From: a candidate division KSB1 bacterium
Lineage (GTDB): Bacteria; Zhuqueibacterota; JdFR-76; DREG01
Assembly: GCA_022566355.1 (NCBI GenBank)
Contig: JADFJB010000026.1
Location: 1-40,105 of the forward strand
Direction: 5' to 3'
Length of the DNA: 40,105 nucleotides
The notes beneath the pieces were generated by a model that was not told where the DNA came from, made no database searches, and saw only the letters and a list, made by a program, of their open reading frames with translations. Position 1 is the stretch's first letter. Every line of letters starts with the position of its first letter. The translations under genes were made by a program, and so were the position numbers. This document shows, in pieces, positions 3,533 through 34,244 of the stretch.

Positions 3533-5736
3533 CTACTTCCCCGGCCCATGCGCCTTCTCATAAGTCTGCAAGGAGTGCATCAATGCTGTGGCTTGTTTGA
3601 AAGCGACCTGGATAGATTCTTTCTGGTATGGGCTAAGCATTGCATCTGTCACTATCGTCGGCACACCTTCCTGATCGACAGCATGGCAGGTGCCGCATTT
3701 TATCGGTCCGGCATGGCCATCCGGATTCAGCGCCTTCGCCTGGCTTAAACTGACCGGATCGGCGCCTTTCTCGGTTACCGGGTATAATCCATGAGTACTT
3801 TGGTGGCAGCTCTGGCACGAGATACCGCGGTGGCCTTTGCTGTAACGCATCAGGCTAAACTTCTCCACCTGGTCGATGGGCCCGTAAATGCCGCCCATAT
3901 TTTCCACGAAAGGCGGGTTGTGGCAGTCGGCGCATTTGGGTTCGCCAGCCGCGAGCCAGAAATCCTTGCCATCATCGATAATGCGATAGGGATCGGATGG
4001 CGTATCGGTCCAAATGGCTTTGATGCCATCACTCGTGGTTTTCGGATCGAAAAAATCCTCCGCGGAAAAATTGGCGTATCGTCCGTTTTCCATACGTCGC
4101 ATCGTAGTCACTATTTGATCTAGAGAACGATTTCGAAGTGTCGATCCTGTCAATGCAAGCACATTATCCAGCGTATCCGCTTTGTACAATAGTCGTGAGG
4201 CAACATTATGACAATTGGTGCAGTACATGCCTTTACCATCCATCAAAACATTTTCCTGGATCCACTTCCCTATCGAATTCAAATGTTTTTGAGTTCCCAG
4301 CACTTTGCCGGAATTCGCATTCGAGTGCAGATCACGACCCAGAAAACAACCGCCGCGATAATCGCGAATATCGCCGCCACGGAAATGACCTTCATCATTT
4401 ATCGGGTATTCCGCCAAACTGCCAGACTGCACATGGGCAGGGTGACAGCCCTGGCAATTTGCGGTTCGGCCGTTTATATCCGGATCCAGCGCTTTCTCCA
4501 AATGAAGCAGATGCATTGCTTCTGAAAGGGACGAAATTGTTTCTCCGTTCGGTTTTTTCGCGCCCTGTAATTGCCCGACGATATTATCGGCGTGGCATGC
4601 CTGGCACCGTACTGGTTGACGACCAAGCCGGGTCACCGATGCACCCGTGCGATTATCAGGATCGTAGCTTTTAAGAAATTCGGTGTCATGTTTGTCATCG
4701 TGGATTTCCAGGAGTGAAATGGAGGCAGCTTTAATTTTCGCGTAATAATCTGTCGTATTCGGGAATGTATTTTCCAAAAATTAAACTCTTTTTCCCAAAG
4801 ATTGTACTTCTCTCCATTAGCCCGTTTTGAAGCATGACATTTCTGACAACCCGGTACATCGATTGGGTTGGCGCCAAAAAAGGTTATCGGTTCTTTGGTT
4901 CGGGGATCATTCTCAATCGTCACTTCATGTTTTTGCGGAATGGAATCCGCATTCTGATCCTGCCAAACAGCCAATGAAACCGAGGCTTTTTGATAGGGCC
5001 GAATAATTTCTTCGGTTGCTTCCCGGATATTTCCGATGGAGCCATCGTAAAAAGGGGTTAATGGCAAACCGAGCGCTTCCCAATATCCACGCATAGCTAA
5101 AACCAATGGCGTTTCTGAGATGCCATCATTGGTAACCGTGTAGAGAACGGTGCCATCCGGTCCGGTATAATCCAATTTACCGTGACTCATTGGTTTACCG
5201 GTTGGACCATGATCCTGCGGAATTGCCAGGTCGGTTCCTAAATACAACTTTGTTAACTTGCCGGTCGGGTATGGCATATACCGGAGCGGTCTTTCTTCAT
5301 ATGTAAAAAGATGTTGAAAGTATGCATTGGCAAAAGAGTCGCTTGGATCCTGGACATCGCCGTCGCCATTCACGTCTACGGGCACATTCCAATACAACAT
5401 TTTGGGGCCTTCAGAATAGGTGTTGTCCACATGCTCATACCAAAGAATCAAATGATCCGCTTGTAAGTCGGTTTCAGTAAGAATTACAGGTTTCGCCATA
5501 GGTGAATCTGCAGTTTTAATAATTTGAGCGAGGATGCTATTATAAGGTGGCAAAATACAACAATAAGAAAGATCGAAGCCGGTACAATGCATACCTAAAT
5601 CATAATGGATCGTGATCACATATTCTCGACTGGGAATTTTGATTTGGGATATGGTTTGCGCAAGGGCTGGCGGGGAGTACGCAACCAAGTGCAGTATTGA
5701 AAATAAAGGAAATAAAAATTTTAGGTTCGTTTTCAT
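3533..5736 (-). pseudogene. Seven-haem secreted cytochrome c, split by a frameshift
   Basis: Two overlapping minus-strand frames together encode one secreted protein of about 735 residues. The upstream frame (from ATG 5736, or ATG 5745) has a signal peptide (MKTNLKFLFPLFSILHLVAY, cleavage near PPALAQ), a globular part with H-Y-D-L-G-M-H-C and Y-C-C-I-L-P-P motifs, and the first haem motif CQKCH. The downstream frame (4777-3533, opened only by a TTG) has no signal peptide and carries six more: CQACH, CQGCH, CTNCH, CADCH, CQSCH and CGTCH. The break is at the T5 run near 4776-4780; one extra T reads EFNF-LENTFPNTTDYY without interruption. As written, the upstream product would keep one haem and end at 4633. 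The gene lies downstream of a periplasmic Mo hydroxylase and could accept its electrons. A sequence error, a true pseudogene or slippage are all possible; a T5 tract is weak for programmed slippage. Confidence 0.8.
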
Positions 5737-5742
5737 TAAAAA

Positions 5743-5812
5743 CATTTTTAGACAGGATAAACAGGATTATCAGGATAATAATCCAGTATATCTTGTTAAT
5801 CCTGTCAAAAAA
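5743..5812. repeat. Dispersed repeat, copy 1
   Basis: This 70-bp unit runs from CATTTTTAGACAGGATAAAC to CTTGTTAATCCTGTCAAAAA. Its ends GACAGGAT and ATCCTGTC are inverted copies, so it can fold on itself. Two further copies, in the same orientation, lie at 11959-12044 and 16563-16649. This copy sits directly against the start of the cytochrome gene on the minus strand, and the ATG at 5745 belongs to the repeat. Confidence 0.9.
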
Positions 5813-5839
5813 GAAAAAACAGCTATTAAAAGAGATTAT

Positions 5840-6121
5840 TTAAGAAAGATTGTCTTCGTAATTTTTCCGGTCATTCGAGGCCACAGGGATGCTTGACAGT
5901 AATGGTTGAAAGCAAACCCTGTTGGGCGTACAATCTTCCGGGCAAACCACATCGTCATCGGGGCCAATGGGGTGGAGTGTTTTTAAGCAAAAGTATTGGT
6001 TGTACGGGTGATGAACTTCCATATAATGTTCATCAAGCATATCCGGAACATAACTGGCTTTAGTGCGCATACTCTTACAGATTGGCAGTTCCGGATGATC
6101 CGGATTTTTAATAAAAGACAT
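5840..6121 (-). CDS. Small cysteine-rich protein of unknown function
   Basis: A 93-residue protein starting at ATG 6121 behind a good ribosome site (GAGGTT, 6 nt upstream). It has no signal peptide or membrane helix. Cysteines lie at about residues 15, 45, 60, 64 and 70, the last three as C-x3-C-x5-C in the segment VVCPEDCTPNRVC, which could bind metal or form disulfides. Histidines are also frequent (H32, H37, H38, H50). I do not recognise the family. It sits 92 bp downstream of the FAD subunit of the Mo hydroxylase and upstream of the cytochrome on the same strand, so it may be part of that operon, as an accessory or maturation factor. That role is inference from position only. Confidence 0.65.
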   Translation of the reverse strand: MSFIKNPDHPELPICKSMRTKASYVPDMLDEHYMEVHHPYNQYFCLKTLHPIGPDDDVVCPEDCTPNRVCFQPLLSSIPVASNDRKNYEDNLS

Positions 6122-6159
6122 GCTGAACCTCGATTTTTATGAAATTTATTAACTTCAAA

Positions 6160-6205
6160 TTAGTTTTTCCAACTTGGCGTTCTTCGCGTCTTTGCGGTTA
6201 AAAAA
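6160..6205. repeat. Half of a CTTTGCGG-type dispersed repeat
   Basis: The sequence CTTCGCGTCTTTGCGGT at about 6180-6200, just after the FAD-subunit stop (minus strand), matches the arm of the palindromic element at 35794-35987. Only one arm is present here. Confidence 0.45.
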
Positions 6206-6213
6206 ATTATCAT

Positions 6214-7185
6214 TTAACTCAAACTCTGCAATGCTCGCCGCACCAGGTTTTCGGTCAATTGAATTTTATAGCCATTATGTTGCAACGGCAGCGCATTAGC
6301 TACAGATACAGAAGCAGCGTTCTCGATATTGGCTGCATTTAAGGTTTTACCTTCCAGCTCCGCTTCGGAATTTTTTACCCGCCAGGGTATCGACGCAACA
6401 CCACCCAGCACGATACGGGCTTTTTGCACCCGGTTGCCACTCATCTGCAAAACAGCAGCTACACTACTGATGGCGAAATCCATAGATTGTTTTTCACGGA
6501 ATTTAAGATAAGTGGATCGTGTTCCTCGTGCAGGTTCCGGGATCATTATTTTTGTGACAACCTGGTTCGCCTTTAAAATATTTTCACGCCTGAGATTATC
6601 CACTGGTAATTGAAAAAAGTCTGCAATGGCTGTCTCCTGGGTTCCTGATGCTCCAAGAATCTCGATACTGGCTGCAAGCGCCATAAGCGCCGGTGCAGAA
6701 TCAGACGGGTGGACAATAAAGCTGGGACCGCCGCCCAATATTGCGTTGTATTGATTGAGACCCTCGACAGAATAGCATTTACTCCCGCCTTTTTTAAGGC
6801 ATGGAAACTCTTTACCACGAAAATACCAACAACGCGGTCGTTGGCATATATTTCCGCCAATTGTACCCATATTACGCAATTGCGGGGTGGCTACGGAAGC
6901 TGCAGCTTCGGATAAAACTGCATACTTTCCTTGAATTTTTGGATCAGCTGCAATTGTAGCAATGGTGGTTAAAGCGCCGATTTCTATGCCATTGCCATTA
7001 CTTATCCCGTAAAGATCTTTAATATTTTTGATATTCACAACCCGCTTGGGCTCGATTAATCTTTCCTTTAGCATATCGAGTAAATCTGTTCCACCTGCCA
7101 GGATCGCACTTTCACCCCATCTGGGTCCCAAAAGCTCCGGTAAATCAGCTAGATGTTTTGCGTTGACATATTCAAACTTATTCAT
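6214..7185 (-). CDS. Mo-hydroxylase FAD-binding subunit (PaoB/YagS type)
   Basis: This 323-residue protein is the medium, flavin-carrying subunit of a xanthine-oxidase-family enzyme; it passes electrons from the iron-sulfur subunit to the outside acceptor. The FAD pyrophosphate motif AILAGGTDLL is at residues 28-37, and RNMGTIGGN at about 104-112 is the second FAD contact. The insert after it has cysteines 114, 119, 129 and 137 in a spacing like that of PaoB and 4-hydroxybenzoyl-CoA reductase beta subunits, which carry an extra [4Fe-4S] cluster. VHPSDSAPALMAL follows as expected. The C-terminal CO-dehydrogenase flavoprotein domain is complete. It starts 11 bp after the Mo subunit and has no signal peptide, consistent with export of the folded complex through the Tat signal on the small subunit. 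Confidence 0.92.
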   Translation of the reverse strand: MNKFEYVNAKHLADLPELLGPRWGESAILAGGTDLLDMLKERLIEPKRVVNIKNIKDLYGISNGNGIEIGALTTIATIAADPKIQGKYAVLSEAAASVATPQLRNMGTIGGNICQRPRCWYFRGKEFPCLKKGGSKCYSVEGLNQYNAILGGGPSFIVHPSDSAPALMALAASIEILGASGTQETAIADFFQLPVDNLRRENILKANQVVTKIMIPEPARGTRSTYLKFREKQSMDFAISSVAAVLQMSGNRVQKARIVLGGVASIPWRVKNSEAELEGKTLNAANIENAASVSVANALPLQHNGYKIQLTENLVRRALQSLS

Positions 7186-7196
7186 GATGAACCTCC

Positions 7197-9314
7197 TTAT
7201 CGGCCATTGGTTGAAGGTGTGAGTGCAGTTAACACTTTATCCGGAGTCATCGGTAATTCACGAATACGCACTCCGATAGCGTTGTAAACCGCATTTGCTA
7301 TTGCCGCCGCTGTCGGTATCGTTGGCGGTTCTCCTATTCCTATAACACCGCGTTCCGGTTCATCATGAAATATGACTTCAATTTCAGGCGTTTCCATCGT
7401 ACCTAGAATTTTGTAATTCTCGAACTCAGCATTGACCTGGACTCCTGTAATCGGATCCATTTGTCTGTTTTCGTAAAGAGCGTAACTTACACCTTGAACA
7501 ACAGCTCCATTGATCTGACTCTCGGTAGTAAGTCGATCAAGAATCAAGCCGCAATCATGAACAGCTACGATTTTGATCACATCAATTCGACCGGTTTCAA
7601 TATCCACCTCAACTTCTGCAAACTGGCAGCCGGCAACACCGGCTGAAGAAAGACCTTCGACCCATTCACCATGGACTTCGAGTGATTCGGAATCCAGCAG
7701 GCTGCAGATTTCTTTCCAGGTTAGTTTTTTATTTGCAGCCCCACGAACCGAAACTTCTCCGTTTCCCCATTCAATTTCGGTAGGCTGAACTCCAAAATGA
7801 TTCGCCGCTAATTCTATTAGTTTGGCTTTCGCTTTTTCTGTGGTATTTTTGATAGCCGGCGCCACAGAGGGAGCAGTGGTGCTTCCTCCCGAGCCACCTG
7901 ACCGTGGATAGTTTGTATCCCCTACCAGTGATCGGATTTGATTTATCTTCAACCCTAGTTCCTCTGCGGCGATGGCTGCAATAATCGTACGGGTGCCGGT
8001 GCCAATATCCTGGGTGCCACATTTTACTTCAACTCCACCATCCGGAAAAACCGTCATTGTTGCTTTTGTACCCCTGCCTCCAGTCGACCAGATACTGGCG
8101 CCTAAACCTAAACCTCGCTTCAATGGTCCGCTACCGCTGCCAGGTGTTTTATTGCGTTTATTCCAGCTAATTCTTTCTGCACCTTTTCGCCACTCTTGTA
8201 ACCTGGTTTGATTGGTATCGACTTTTAGCCGCAAATCCAGGGGATCCATTCCTAATTTTTCCGCTAATTCATCCATGATTTGCTCCATGGCAAAGGATGA
8301 CTGCGGACGACCGGGAGCCCTAAAAGGCCGGGCAGATCCGGCATTGGTAAATACATCGAAATGTTCATGTTTCCAATTCGGAAATTCATAAACAAATGGA
8401 AGGAGTGTTCTTGCGTTGGAACTGATACCCGGGGTACCCCAACTTGTTGCTGAGAATGCGACCAACTCACCGTCTTTCTTTGCGCCCGCTTTAATTTTTT
8501 GAATACTGTCGGGGCGATTCCCGGCTACCAAAAAATCCTGTTTACGAGTTAACATGAGATGTACTGGTGCATTGGCCTGTTTGGACAATTTTGCAGCAAT
8601 AGCCGAATAACTCCCTGGCTGAAGCTTGCTGCCAAACCCCCCTCCCATGTGTTGGCATATCACTCGTACTTTACTCTCCGGCATTTCCAAAAACTTCGCT
8701 AAGCCTTCACGAACACCATGAACCGCCTGGGTCGAATCCCAAACAATAAGCTCATCACCTTCCCACATAGCCACACTGCCGTGAGTTTCCAGGCTAGACT
8801 GGGTTTGTACCTGGGTTCGAAATTCATCTTCGACAATCACATCTGCCTGGGCAAAACCCGCCTCCACATCACCCTCGCCACGAACTCTCGGATCGCGAAT
8901 ATTGCTCCGATTTGTAAATACTCTTGGAGCGCCGTCTTTCATAGCCGCATCCAAATCGGCTGCAAACGGCAATACTTCATATTTCACATCAAATAATTCC
9001 AGGGCATCTTTAGCGATTTCGGCAGTAGTTGCCGCAACCGCTGCGACATCTTCACCAACATAGCGCAAAGTTCCAGTGGGATGGACATCTGTTAAGACGG
9101 CTTTCACGCCCGGCAGCCTGCGCACTTTTGAATCATCTATACTGATGATTTTTGCAGCAGGATGAGGCGAAGACAGGATAGCGCCATATAGCATGCCCTT
9201 AGGATTTTGATCATACACATACTTCGCTTGACCCGTAACTTTTTCGGCTCCATCCAGACGAGGATAACGTTTGCTCAGTATTGACATTTGATTGAGAGGT
9301 TTCCAATTCGCCAT
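7197..9314 (-). CDS. Mo-hydroxylase molybdopterin-binding catalytic subunit (PaoC/YagR type)
   Basis: A 705-residue large subunit that binds the molybdenum cofactor and hydroxylates aldehydes or related substrates. The N-terminal aldehyde-oxidase a/b hammerhead domain spans about residues 15-125, and the Mo-cofactor domain follows with QHMGGGFGSK near residue 220 and the moco-binding G-T-Q-D-I-G-T-G-T motif further on. The catalytic Glu is visible in GIGEPPTIPTAA at about residue 662, the same context as in PaoC. Length and motifs agree with the PaoC branch rather than classical xanthine dehydrogenases. It starts 3 bp after the 2Fe-2S gene, with a GGAG ribosome site overlapping that gene's end. 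The substrate cannot be read from the sequence; aromatic or aliphatic aldehydes are likeliest by family. Confidence 0.93.
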   Translation of the reverse strand: MANWKPLNQMSILSKRYPRLDGAEKVTGQAKYVYDQNPKGMLYGAILSSPHPAAKIISIDDSKVRRLPGVKAVLTDVHPTGTLRYVGEDVAAVAATTAEIAKDALELFDVKYEVLPFAADLDAAMKDGAPRVFTNRSNIRDPRVRGEGDVEAGFAQADVIVEDEFRTQVQTQSSLETHGSVAMWEGDELIVWDSTQAVHGVREGLAKFLEMPESKVRVICQHMGGGFGSKLQPGSYSAIAAKLSKQANAPVHLMLTRKQDFLVAGNRPDSIQKIKAGAKKDGELVAFSATSWGTPGISSNARTLLPFVYEFPNWKHEHFDVFTNAGSARPFRAPGRPQSSFAMEQIMDELAEKLGMDPLDLRLKVDTNQTRLQEWRKGAERISWNKRNKTPGSGSGPLKRGLGLGASIWSTGGRGTKATMTVFPDGGVEVKCGTQDIGTGTRTIIAAIAAEELGLKINQIRSLVGDTNYPRSGGSGGSTTAPSVAPAIKNTTEKAKAKLIELAANHFGVQPTEIEWGNGEVSVRGAANKKLTWKEICSLLDSESLEVHGEWVEGLSSAGVAGCQFAEVEVDIETGRIDVIKIVAVHDCGLILDRLTTESQINGAVVQGVSYALYENRQMDPITGVQVNAEFENYKILGTMETPEIEVIFHDEPERGVIGIGEPPTIPTAAAIANAVYNAIGVRIRELPMTPDKVLTALTPSTNGR

Positions 9315-9317
9315 GGC

Positions 9318-9953
9318 TCACACTCCTTTCCGCATTGTTTTTGCAGCTGCTTGTACAGCTTCAAACAATTTAGGATACGTTCCACATCGACAGGTATTAC
9401 CGGAAAGTCCTTGTTTAATTTGGTCCAGAGTAGGATTTAAATTATTTTGCAACAAGGTCGTTGCAGCCATAACAAATCCGGGAGTACAAAAACCACACAT
9501 AAGTGCATCCTTTTCTATAAAAGCCTGTTGCACGACTGTCAACTGATCTCCTTTTGCCAACCCTTCAATGGTCACGATCTTTTTTCCGCGCAAGTCAAGG
9601 GCAAGCGACATGCATGAAAGCACAAGTTCACCATCGACATGGACAGTACAAGCGCCGCATTGTCCGCGGTCGCAGACTTCTTTGCTGCCGGTAAGTTCCA
9701 GTTTTTCCCGCAACGCACATAGCAGAGTTGTCCTGGGCTCGACAGTAACGCTTTGGTTTTTGCCATTGATATTTAGTTGAATGGTTTGCGAACCAGCAAT
9801 AATTTCCGCATCCGGGTTAAAGATGGCTGCGGCCGCTTCTTTGGTGAGCAGACCGCCACTGGTAATTGCGGCAGTTGTTGCAATTCCCCCACCCACTCCT
9901 TTGAGAAATTTCCTTCGGGAAACTTTTCCGTTGGTTTTGCTCTCTTCGGGCAT
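9318..9953 (-). CDS. Mo-hydroxylase [2Fe-2S] subunit with Tat signal (PaoA/YagT type)
   Basis: A 211-residue small subunit starting at ATG 9953 behind AAAGGAGC. A twin-arginine signal SRRKFLKG at residues 12-19 (R13, R14) and a hydrophobic stretch ending in EAAAA send the folded complex to the periplasm. The plant-type ferredoxin cluster is held by C94, C99, C102 and C114, and the second [2Fe-2S] cluster by C153, C156, C188 and C190 (CGFCTPG and CRCG). All eight ligands are present. It is the first gene of the set and the only subunit with a signal, as in E. coli PaoABC. Export implies a periplasmic electron acceptor, which makes the downstream multihaem cytochrome an attractive partner. Confidence 0.94.
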   Translation of the reverse strand: MPEESKTNGKVSRRKFLKGVGGGIATTAAITSGGLLTKEAAAAIFNPDAEIIAGSQTIQLNINGKNQSVTVEPRTTLLCALREKLELTGSKEVCDRGQCGACTVHVDGELVLSCMSLALDLRGKKIVTIEGLAKGDQLTVVQQAFIEKDALMCGFCTPGFVMAATTLLQNNLNPTLDQIKQGLSGNTCRCGTYPKLFEAVQAAAKTMRKGV

Positions 9954-18533: not shown

Positions 18534-19799
18534 ATGAAGAATCGAACTATCCAATCCATATTAACTCCCTTAATTCTTTTTGGATTGATTAGCTGCCAGG
18601 GCAACTATGCAAGTAAGTCCGAAGACGAACTTATGAAAAAAGCAAAAGAAATCCATGCCAGGATATTAACAATAGACACTCACGATGATATCCCCCCTAC
18701 CTTTGCGACGGACGAGGTCGATCCCGGAGTTGATGGTAGTAGACAGGTAGATTTGCCTAAAATGAAGAGCGGTGGATTGGATGTTGCTTTCTTCATCGTT
18801 TATGTTGGCCAGACCGAAAGAACCCCGGAAAACTACCAGGAAGCAAAAGATGCAGCTATGGTGAAATTTAATGCTATTCATCGCATGACCGAAGAAATGT
18901 ACCCGGATAAAATAGAATTGGCACATTCGGCGGATGATATTGAAAGGATCAATCAAAGCGGCAAACTGGTAGCCTGTATCGGTATCGAAAATGGCTATGT
19001 GATCGGCAAGGATTTATCGCTTTTGCAGAAATACTACGATCTCGGCGCTCGTTATATTACTTTGGCACATGGCGGCCATAATGATATTTGCGATTCTGCA
19101 ACGCCGCGGGAAAACCTGGGTGACGGGGAAAGTGAGCATAACGGAGTGAGTGAATTCGGCAAAGAAGTGATCGCGGAAATGAACCGGTTAGGCATTATGG
19201 TGGATGTCTCCCATATCTCCAAAAAAGCCATGTTGGATGCGGTTGCACTAACGAAATCACCTGTCATAGCCTCACATTCAAGCGCGAGGGCATTGTGTGA
19301 TCATCCAAGGAATTTGGATGATGAGCAACTCCTTGCTTTGAAAGAAAACGGTGGAGTGATGCAGACCGTTGCATTTCGTAGATATGTAAAGGAGGACGTC
19401 CCTGAAAAAATTGCTGCCAGAGATTCCATTTGGGAGGCAATGGGGATTACAAGTTTTTCCGCATTGAGAGATCTTAGCGACGAAAAGAGAACTGAATATC
19501 GTGCCAGTTTGTCAGAATTAGATGAAAAATGGCCATCTGCAAATGTAAAAGATTTCGTCGACCATATCGACCATGCAGTCAAATTAATCGGCATTGACCA
19601 TGTTGGAATCAGCTCGGATTTTGACGGCGGCGGTGGCGTGGATGGCTGGAATAATGCCGGTGAATCTTTGAACCTGACCGTAGAATTGGTTCGTCGAGGC
19701 TATTCAGAGGAAGATATTGCTAAATTGTGGGGCGGTAATTTATTGCGCGTTTTGCGTGAAAACGAACGAATTGCAAAAGAGTTACAGACATCGAGTTAA
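18534..19799 (+). CDS. Lipoprotein membrane dipeptidase, M19 family (paralogue 1)
   Basis: A 421-residue enzyme with a strong ribosome site (TTGGAGGAG). Residues 1-20 plus C21 (LFGLISC) form a lipoprotein signal. All binuclear zinc ligands of renal-dipeptidase-type enzymes are visible: H50 and D52 (TIDTHDDIP), bridging E152 (GIENG), H227 (DVSHIS) and H248 (ASHSS), with the catalytic-site Asp D362 (SSDFDG). Such enzymes cleave dipeptides, including ones with a D-residue at the C-terminal side, and some act on beta-lactams. It is encoded between the DUF885 gene and a second M19 gene, and is strikingly similar to the third M19 at 32982-34244. Confidence 0.95.
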   Translation: MKNRTIQSILTPLILFGLISCQGNYASKSEDELMKKAKEIHARILTIDTHDDIPPTFATDEVDPGVDGSRQVDLPKMKSGGLDVAFFIVYVGQTERTPENYQEAKDAAMVKFNAIHRMTEEMYPDKIELAHSADDIERINQSGKLVACIGIENGYVIGKDLSLLQKYYDLGARYITLAHGGHNDICDSATPRENLGDGESEHNGVSEFGKEVIAEMNRLGIMVDVSHISKKAMLDAVALTKSPVIASHSSARALCDHPRNLDDEQLLALKENGGVMQTVAFRRYVKEDVPEKIAARDSIWEAMGITSFSALRDLSDEKRTEYRASLSELDEKWPSANVKDFVDHIDHAVKLIGIDHVGISSDFDGGGGVDGWNNAGESLNLTVELVRRGYSEEDIAKLWGGNLLRVLRENERIAKELQTSS

Positions 19800-19835
19800 T
19801 TATATCATGTGCGTTTAAAATTTAGGAGTTCAGTA

Positions 19836-21047
19836 ATGAAATTAAATCATCTTCGTCCATTTTTATTTTTATGCCTGGTTGTGATTTTCAGCTCCTGTTC
19901 GAAAAATTTAAAAGATGAAGCAGATAAAATTGCCCAAAGCACAATCATTCTAGACGGCCACGTTGATATCCCCTATCGTCTGAACAATAAAATGGAGGAT
20001 ATTTCACAAAGAACCGAAGGCGGAGATTTTGATTTTGTTCGCGCAAAGAAAGGTGGGTTGAACGCTCCGTTTATGTCTATTTATATTCCAGCTGAAAAAG
20101 AAGAAGAAGGAACTGCCAAAAAATTTGCAGATTATCTGATCGACATGGTGGAAAAAATAGCGGCGGATTCGCCGGATAAATTCGCCGTCGCAACTTCAGT
20201 TGCGGATGTTCACAGCCAGTTTGAAAAGGGAGTCATTTCTTTGCCAATGGGTATGGAAAACGGCGCGCCAATCGAAGGTGATTTGAAGAATGTCGAATAC
20301 TTTTACAACCGCGGCATTCGTTACATTACATTAACCCATTCAAAGAACAACCATATCTGTGATTCATCATACGATCCTGAAAAAAAATGGAACGGCTTAA
20401 GCCCATTCGGTAATGAGGTTGTGAAAGAGATGAACCGGGTTGGCATTATGATAGATGTTTCCCACATTACGGACGACACATTTTACCAGGTTATGGAGAT
20501 AACCCAGGCCCCGGTCATTGCTTCCCATTCTTCCTGTCGTGCTTTTACTCCGGGTTTTATGAGAAATATGGATGACGAAATGTTAAAAAAATTGGCCGAA
20601 AATGGCGGTGTCATTCAAATCAATTTTGGCTCCTCGTTTCTGGATGGCGAAATCCAAAAAAAATACGATGAAGCATTCGCAGCCTCTGCAGAATATGCCA
20701 AGGAAAATAACCTCAATGCAGACGATCCAAAACTGGATGAATTTATGAGCAAATATAAAGAGGAACACAATATAGGCTTCGCCGATATTACTGATATTGT
20801 CAAGCATATCGATCATGTTGTAAATTTAATCGGAATCGATCATGTCGGAATTGGCTCCGATTTTGATGGTGTGGGCGACTCGTTACCCACCGGCATGAAA
20901 GACGTGTCCATGTATCCAAATCTCATTCATGAGCTGCTGAAAAAAGGATACTCCAGGGAAGACATCGTAAAAATTTGTAGCGGCAATGTATTCCGGGTTT
21001 GGTCCGAAGTGGAGGCGACTGCAAAGAGGTTACAGACATCCAGTTAG
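19836..21047 (+). CDS. Lipoprotein membrane dipeptidase, M19 family (paralogue 2)
   Basis: 403 residues from ATG 19836, chosen because AGGAGT lies just upstream and a lipoprotein signal with C21 (VVIFSSC) follows at once. The zinc site is complete: H42/D44 (LDGHVDIP), E141 (GMENG), H210 (DVSHIT), H231 (ASHSSCR) and D342 (GSDFDG). Compared with paralogue 1 it is clearly divergent and has a lysine- and glutamate-rich insertion at about 270-315. It is transcribed with the previous gene (36-bp gap). Substrate preference is likely different, but that is inference. Confidence 0.94.
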   Translation: MKLNHLRPFLFLCLVVIFSSCSKNLKDEADKIAQSTIILDGHVDIPYRLNNKMEDISQRTEGGDFDFVRAKKGGLNAPFMSIYIPAEKEEEGTAKKFADYLIDMVEKIAADSPDKFAVATSVADVHSQFEKGVISLPMGMENGAPIEGDLKNVEYFYNRGIRYITLTHSKNNHICDSSYDPEKKWNGLSPFGNEVVKEMNRVGIMIDVSHITDDTFYQVMEITQAPVIASHSSCRAFTPGFMRNMDDEMLKKLAENGGVIQINFGSSFLDGEIQKKYDEAFAASAEYAKENNLNADDPKLDEFMSKYKEEHNIGFADITDIVKHIDHVVNLIGIDHVGIGSDFDGVGDSLPTGMKDVSMYPNLIHELLKKGYSREDIVKICSGNVFRVWSEVEATAKRLQTSS

Positions 21048-32981: not shown

Positions 32982-34244
32982 CTAGTTATTCGAAGCAGTA
33001 GCCTGCATTTCAGACGCCACACGTTCGACTTCACGCCACACACGCAATAAATTTCCACCCCAAATTTTGGTGATTTCTTCTTCTGAATATCCTCTACGCA
33101 CCAATTCCAGTGTAACATTGAAGGTTTCACTGGCATCTTTCCAACCCTCGATGCCGCCACCCCCGTCAAAGTCAGAGCTAATTCCGACATGGTCAATGCC
33201 AATCAATTTTACTGCGTGATCTATATGATCAACAAAATCCTGTACAGTTGCAGGTGGCCATTTTTCGTTGATCTCATCCCGTCTTTTTCGATAAACGGCT
33301 TGCTTTTCATCTGAAAGTTGTCTGATGGCACGACGACCACGAACTCCCAGCTCCTCGAACAATGTTTCCATTGCGGTCTGCTTTTCCGGAGGGTTCTTAA
33401 CAAAATTACCCAATGCTACTGTTTGTATTACACCACCGTTTGTTTTCAACGCCTGTAACTGCTCATCATCCATGTTGCGTGATACATCGCATAAAGCTCT
33501 TGTACTCGAATGGGAAGCAATCACCGGAGCTTTGGACAAGCTTACCGCATCGAGCATAGATTTCTTTGAAATATGGGAAACATCCACCATAATCCCCAAT
33601 CTATTCATTTCGGCAATTACTTTTTTACCGAACTCGCTGACGCCATTGTGTTCACTTTCGGAATCTCCCAGTTGTTCTCTCGGATTTGCAGAATCACAGA
33701 TGTCATTGTGACCATTGTGCGCCAGGGTAATGTAACGAGCCCCGAGATCGTGATATTTTTTTAACAGGCTCAGATCTTTGCCAACGACATAACCATTTTC
33801 AATGCCGATGCACGCCACAAGCTTACCGCTATTATTTATTCGTACCACATCATCGGCTGTGTAAGCCAGTTCGATTTTATCAGGATACATCTCCTCGGTC
33901 ATACGATGAATTGCATTGAACTTTGTCATGGCATCTTCTTTGGCCTTCGCATAGTTCTCCGGTGTTCTTTCCGTTTGACCGACAAAGACGATGAAAAACC
34001 CGGCATCCAAACCACCTTCGATCATTTTTGGCAGATCCATCTGGCGATCCCCCCGTACGCCCGGATCAACTTCTTCGCTAGCGAATGTGAGTGGAATATC
34101 GTCATGAGTATCGATTGTCAGTAGATTTTCGTGAATTCCCCTTGCTTTGGCTGTCAGCTCCTCTTCAGACATCGTAACCTCACACGACAAAAATAATGAG
34201 GAAACAATAAGCATCGATAAAATTACAATAACTTTGTGAACCAT
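32982..34244 (-). CDS. Lipoprotein membrane dipeptidase, M19 family (paralogue 3)
   Basis: 420 residues from ATG 34244, with AAGGAGAT just upstream. The lipoprotein signal ends at C21 (SSLFLSC). Zinc-site residues are complete: H47/D49 (TIDTHDDIP), E149 (GIENG), H224 (DVSHIS), H245 (ASHSS) and D358 (SSDFDG). It is far closer to paralogue 1 than to paralogue 2: long identical blocks such as RMTEEMYPDKIELA and GIDHVGISSDFDGGGG are shared. This points to a fairly recent duplication about 13 kb away on the opposite strand. It appears to be transcribed alone. Confidence 0.95.
   Translation of the reverse strand: MVHKVIVILSMLIVSSLFLSCEVTMSEEELTAKARGIHENLLTIDTHDDIPLTFASEEVDPGVRGDRQMDLPKMIEGGLDAGFFIVFVGQTERTPENYAKAKEDAMTKFNAIHRMTEEMYPDKIELAYTADDVVRINNSGKLVACIGIENGYVVGKDLSLLKKYHDLGARYITLAHNGHNDICDSANPREQLGDSESEHNGVSEFGKKVIAEMNRLGIMVDVSHISKKSMLDAVSLSKAPVIASHSSTRALCDVSRNMDDEQLQALKTNGGVIQTVALGNFVKNPPEKQTAMETLFEELGVRGRRAIRQLSDEKQAVYRKRRDEINEKWPPATVQDFVDHIDHAVKLIGIDHVGISSDFDGGGGIEGWKDASETFNVTLELVRRGYSEEEITKIWGGNLLRVWREVERVASEMQATASNN

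Follow-up and report, generated by a model that had tools for sequence, protein, structure and literature searches.

A PaoABC-like enzyme with a predicted Tat export route and a small four-cysteine protein encoded beside it in one clade

Gene content of the locus

The window analysed here is a 40,105-nucleotide stretch of a contig from a candidate division KSB1 bacterium. On its minus strand, PaoA, PaoC and PaoB reading frames, all intact, run in the order A–C–B from 9953 to 6214, followed by a small cysteine-containing gene and a multihaem cytochrome (Table 1). An earlier note on this DNA had described a complete PaoABC-type enzyme with Tat as its only signal, and this description holds: PaoA carries the Tat motif SRRKFLK, its twin arginines and cysteine pattern align with those of E. 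coli PaoA, the motif recurs in the visible PaoA N termini of relatives, and no signal was seen at the starts of PaoB or PaoC, confining the Tat signal to the [2Fe-2S] subunit. PaoC has E. coli PaoC (5g5h/5g5g) as its top PDB match by sequence and retains in alignment the glutamate of GIGEPP, which we take to be the catalytic-type residue of the enzyme family; E. coli Arg440 aligns with a tryptophan. PaoB contains a cysteine-rich loop (Cys 114/119/129/137), presumably the holder of a [4Fe-4S] cluster as in 4-HBCR-type enzymes, in which Cys 119, 129 and 137 occur in all 28 PaoB sequences of the small-protein set and Cys 114 in 75% of them. The enzyme thus falls among the PaoABC-type heterotrimers of the xanthine oxidase family: one cluster encodes its [2Fe-2S], FAD and Moco subunits as separate proteins, and the FAD subunit carries the [4Fe-4S]-type loop.

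Table 1. Features of the locus, with positions in the window
Feature	Position	Strand	Basis or location
PaoA-like subunit, two [2Fe-2S] domains, 211 aa	9318–9953	-	Pfam Fer2 / Fer2_2, weak TAT_signal
PaoC-like molybdenum-cofactor subunit, 705 aa	7197–9314	-	Pfam MoCoBD_1/2
PaoB-like FAD subunit	6214–7185	-	Pfam FAD_binding_5, CO_deh_flav_C
Small four-cysteine protein, 93 aa, without signal peptide	5840–6121	-	32-sequence alignment and linkage to PaoACB
Imperfect inverted repeat, 17-nt arms, ACAGGATTATCAGGATA / TATCTTGTTAATCCTGT	5761–5805	.	Between small gene and cytochrome start
Cytochrome, first frame: Sec-type signal, DLGMHCTGFD region, one CxxCH	4633–5745	-	ORF
Frameshift point	4770–4781	-	Comparison with L024 and L048
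Cytochrome, second frame: six CxxCH, without own signal or internal stop	3533–4780	-	

Searches against NCBIfam leave the subunits in the superfamily, well under the cut-off of any named enzyme (PaoA, 167 of 322 bits with PRK11433; PaoC, 396 of 1180 bits with NF041671), and the top-scoring family for the Moco subunit, 4-hydroxybenzoyl-CoA reductase (HcrABC), gives 416 bits against a family cut-off of 995 bits. With scores this low, aldehyde oxidation by PaoC is a sensible assumption, not a finding. One XdhC-type maturation gene is present in the window's own genome, on another contig, and MobA-like and XdhC genes adjoin pao in several relatives, as would be consistent with an aldehyde-oxidising enzyme that uses the MCD form of the cofactor.

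The window shares with E. coli PaoABC(D) a [2Fe-2S] subunit that bears the Tat signal, FAD and Moco subunits encoded by genes of their own, and a [4Fe-4S]-type cysteine loop in PaoB; it differs in gene order (A–C–B, against A–B–C–D), in the small four-cysteine gene after paoB and in having no paoD in the cluster. Export of the E. coli enzyme is reported to follow a ternary hitchhiker Tat mechanism in which it travels as a heterotrimer (PMC4273604). HcrABC shares the additional [4Fe-4S] loop of the FAD subunit, whereas the window enzyme, unlike HcrABC, is predicted to be exported through Tat.

A small protein family with four invariant cysteines

The protein encoded after paoB had been described in the earlier note as a small C-x3-C-x5-C protein. 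That motif is present, but the first of its cysteines varies between copies, and the conserved set is C15, C45, C64 and C70. An alignment of 32 sequences holds C15, C45, G53, P54, D55, C64, R68 and C70 invariant, so that four cysteines, GPD and one arginine are common to all copies, whose length is about 60–95 residues (a listing of 104 residues at L022 takes in an upstream frame). We define the family here by these residues and by its encoding with Tat-PaoACB. No signal peptide was seen among the 32 sequences. The cysteine spacing, approximately C-x24-31-C-x18-C-x5-C, fits no Fe-S motif known to us. Pfam, NCBIfam and the PDB give no match to the protein, a PDB profile search with the family returned chance matches alone (best E 0.86), a plasmid search found no copy, and the protein is absent from the open-access text searched. 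An AlphaFold2 model reached a pLDDT of 57, not good enough to look for similar folds. Remote versions of the motif with three cysteines (CGLTGRVNGPDYRPADPEKCRKGRPCF) lie at L197:7853-8149 and L198:7415-7828, near cysteine desulfurase-like and radical SAM-like genes and with no Pao genes.

We followed the family through genomes that are mostly draft assemblies, calling absence where a contig reached far enough to include the following gene. In the window's own phylum profile searches found the small protein in 17 of 82 genomes, all 17 of which contain Pao; in the phylum of G082 (a Calditrichota record) they found it in 8 of 40, among them all six genomes with a window-like PaoC; G106 and G105 of that phylum also have the small gene adjoining paoB. 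Five own-phylum genomes have a window-like PaoC without the small protein (G001, G042, G056, G062 and G063), and their contigs all stop inside pao. Beyond the two phyla, in a sample of about 300 genomes, there were seven strong matches in five families, all downstream of Tat-PaoACB; weak HMM matches in G133, G420 and G238, where Pao is not nearby, were left out.

Every confident match thus sits in a Pao-bearing genome, usually directly 3' of paoB and often with a gap of -4 to 40 nt. Exceptions are small genes 2.7 kb (G024) and 5.7 kb (G036) from pao, one about 0.5 kb off behind another reading frame (G173) and two on another contig than pao (G057 and G080); in G109 and G078 the expected position falls at contig ends. 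As separate observations on gene neighbourhoods, a TonB-dependent receptor-like gene (L027:4412-6664) separates paoB from the small gene in G036, and genomes of family f16 have argG- or argH-like genes close to the small gene or the cytochrome.

In a maximum-likelihood PaoC tree all 19 rows bearing the small gene fall on one side of a single branch (support 100/100), which is recovered in 200 of 200 bootstrap trees, while about 11 changes are required once the labels are shuffled; the same clade had come out of a previous tree that included 28 small-bearing rows. The sister row, L208, is without the small gene, and PaoC of G175 lies just outside the clade. From these sequences the small protein looks to have been acquired once and then retained in one PaoC clade by all the members that could be checked. 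The linkage of enzyme and small cysteine protein that the earlier note had drawn from one locus is therefore strongly supported across relatives. Tat-exported PaoACB enzymes without the small gene occur in the same-phylum sister group, in G175 and in others, and since these enzymes and E. coli PaoABC exist without it, the Tat-PaoACB fold does not need the small protein. Next to the small-bearing genes, the window's own phylum has a second group of Tat-PaoACB genes (L093, L094, L095, L097, L099 and L100), with PaoC 45–49% identical and no small gene.

The neighbouring multihaem cytochrome

Seven CxxCH motifs span 3536–5745, split one and six over two frames; this is far more than chance would give, the six of the second frame comparing with a mean of 0.017 in residue shuffles. 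The secreted seven-CxxCH cytochrome of the earlier note thus keeps its motifs and its signal peptide, but as deposited it is not a single gene. The first frame, 76–77% identical to residues 7–322 of the intact 737-aa protein of G032 (L024:7061-9271), loses frame after about 4771, and the second is 69% identical to residues 320–737 of the same protein. Both relatives compared (G032 and G057) hold one continuous frame, the intact ORF encoding 737 aa with seven haem motifs, and relative to their ...FW(K/R)N(T/Q)FPNT frame an A4 run (T4 at 4770–4773 on the plus strand) is one base short. Changes in the second frame still favour the third position of codons (0.58, against 0.25 and 0.19). Because both halves stay similar and change mostly at third positions, the frameshift is either recent or an error.

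Whether the gene is intact in the organism and broken only by assembly or sequencing, a question that concerns the neighbour and not the enzyme, we regard as evenly balanced. A single-base difference in a short homopolymer, a downstream frame without a stop and the third-position bias all favour an error; four or five adenines, however, make a short run for a short-read homopolymer error, and a recent real mutation would give an identical picture. Programmed frameshifting at 4770–4781 was judged unlikely, there being no X-XXY-YYZ slippery site and the relatives' frame being continuous.

The haem-motif regions match Pfam Cytochrome_C7 and Cytochrom_c3_2, and in these regions the protein resembles known multihaem c7/c3-like cytochromes; the likeness does not extend to the N-terminal 300 or so residues, which contain DLGMHCTGFD and have no Pfam or PDB relative. 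An AlphaFold2 model of the cytochrome (pLDDT 36) was too poor for a fold search. DLGMHC-type N-terminal regions, an unmodelled region of secreted cytochromes, recur in other multihaem proteins (L053:4902-7541, L156:5577-7211 and L051:2194-3693), one of them a long protein with a membrane-type N terminus and one adjoining a bd-oxidase-like gene. No terminator-like site was reported at 5761–5805, between the small gene and the cytochrome.

The earlier note had joined the five genes into a module feeding electrons into a haem wire, and relatives do not bear this out, showing largely the pattern that the note itself had named as its refutation. Among 28 loci carrying the enzyme genes and the small gene, 23 of which have 1 kb or more of sequence past the latter, a multihaem gene lies alongside in two, the window and G032; in most relatives pao and the small gene stand together with no cytochrome next to them, so the cytochrome is not conserved with the enzyme. 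Full-length cytochrome homologues occur in six of the 82 own-phylum genomes and adjoin pao in those same two only; no pao was detected next to the homologues of G057, G045, G024 and G079 (the G079 contig is short). G054, a congener of G032, carries pao together with the small gene and gave no cytochrome match. In the phylum of G082 full-length homologues were found in G109 and G098, the latter with no PaoC match at 1e-60 and with a gene combining bd-oxidase subunit I and cytochrome c domains upstream of the cytochrome. All six own-phylum genomes with the full-length cytochrome do carry Pao of the small-protein clade (Fisher p = 0.0002, kinship ignored), and the same co-presence within families f1, f12 and f16 gives Fisher p = 0.05, again ignoring kinship. 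The heptahaem cytochrome is an optional, lineage-specific neighbour outside the core unit, and the multihaem–enzyme link is weak; given the co-presence in the window's own phylum there may be an occasional functional link, in which an intact neighbouring cytochrome could accept electrons from the enzyme. A Pao–heptahaem unit was not found in the open-access literature searched.

A cytochrome c is encoded in the putative operon of the deoxyribose dehydrogenase of Pseudomonas simiae, an IorAB-like molybdenum enzyme with a potential Tat signal, and has been proposed as its acceptor (PMC6365646). That enzyme has two subunits and no FAD subunit, against the three of the window, and its cytochrome is conserved in the cluster, whereas in the window's group the cytochrome is rarely linked and the heptahaem protein belongs to another family.

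Interpretation of the locus

We consider it probable that the locus encodes a Tat-exported, PaoABC-like periplasmic molybdo-flavoenzyme together with an obligate small accessory of its own, the four-cysteine protein. What is read directly from the sequences is the set of three subunits, the Tat motif of PaoA, the four invariant cysteines and the co-inheritance with one PaoC clade; the mechanism would follow from them as a model. PaoC would hydroxylate an aldehyde or related substrate, and electrons would pass from Moco through two [2Fe-2S] clusters to FAD and then probably to a [4Fe-4S] cluster in PaoB. The complex would cross the membrane folded, using the signal of PaoA, and the signal-less small protein would bind to it, perhaps near PaoB, with its four cysteines holding a metal site, Fe-S or Zn.

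For the small protein itself we lean tentatively, at somewhat short of an even chance, towards a fourth subunit carried through Tat as part of the complex. The fuller version, in which it is a metal-carrying redox subunit that takes electrons from PaoB to periplasmic cytochromes after export with the complex, is on balance unlikely; if true, it would supply the missing acceptor link for PaoABC-type enzymes. A credible alternative, which we hold to be possible but doubtful, is a cytoplasmic maturation factor acting in Fe-S or Moco insertion or in Tat proofreading, outside the exported complex. The lack of a signal peptide in all 32 sequences and the conserved cysteines would suit such a factor, as would a gene placed last in order, like the chaperone gene paoD in E. 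coli (PMC2997495). Against it, known factors are already at hand, XdhC and MobA-like genes lying beside pao in relatives and an XdhC gene elsewhere in the window's own genome, so a role in Moco insertion looks taken while other steps could still be its task. A metal-binding subunit or a maturation partner is, taking the two readings together, probable; what is left over goes to regulation or something else.

It is improbable, in our view, that the heptahaem cytochrome serves PaoACB as its dedicated electron acceptor or wire, with the small protein bridging the two. In its favour, enzyme and cytochrome are adjacent and co-directional in the window and in G032, the two are co-present in the window's own phylum, the P. 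simiae cluster is a precedent, and a 2014 structural paper had as yet no identified physiological acceptor for E. coli PaoABC (PMC3958847). The scarcity of the arrangement, its absence in the congener G054, the bd-type neighbourhood in G098 and the broken frame in the window all weigh against it, and the multihaem wire is best no longer treated as something conserved.

What is new here is the small protein family: lacking any profile, it now has a gene context, and it offers a direct handle on electron exit from, or maturation of, exported molybdo-flavoenzymes. Sister enzymes that do without it should make its role readily accessible to experiment.

Elsewhere in the window lie three similar M19-like membrane dipeptidase-like genes (18534–19799, 19809–21047 and 32982–34244), two of them in tandem.
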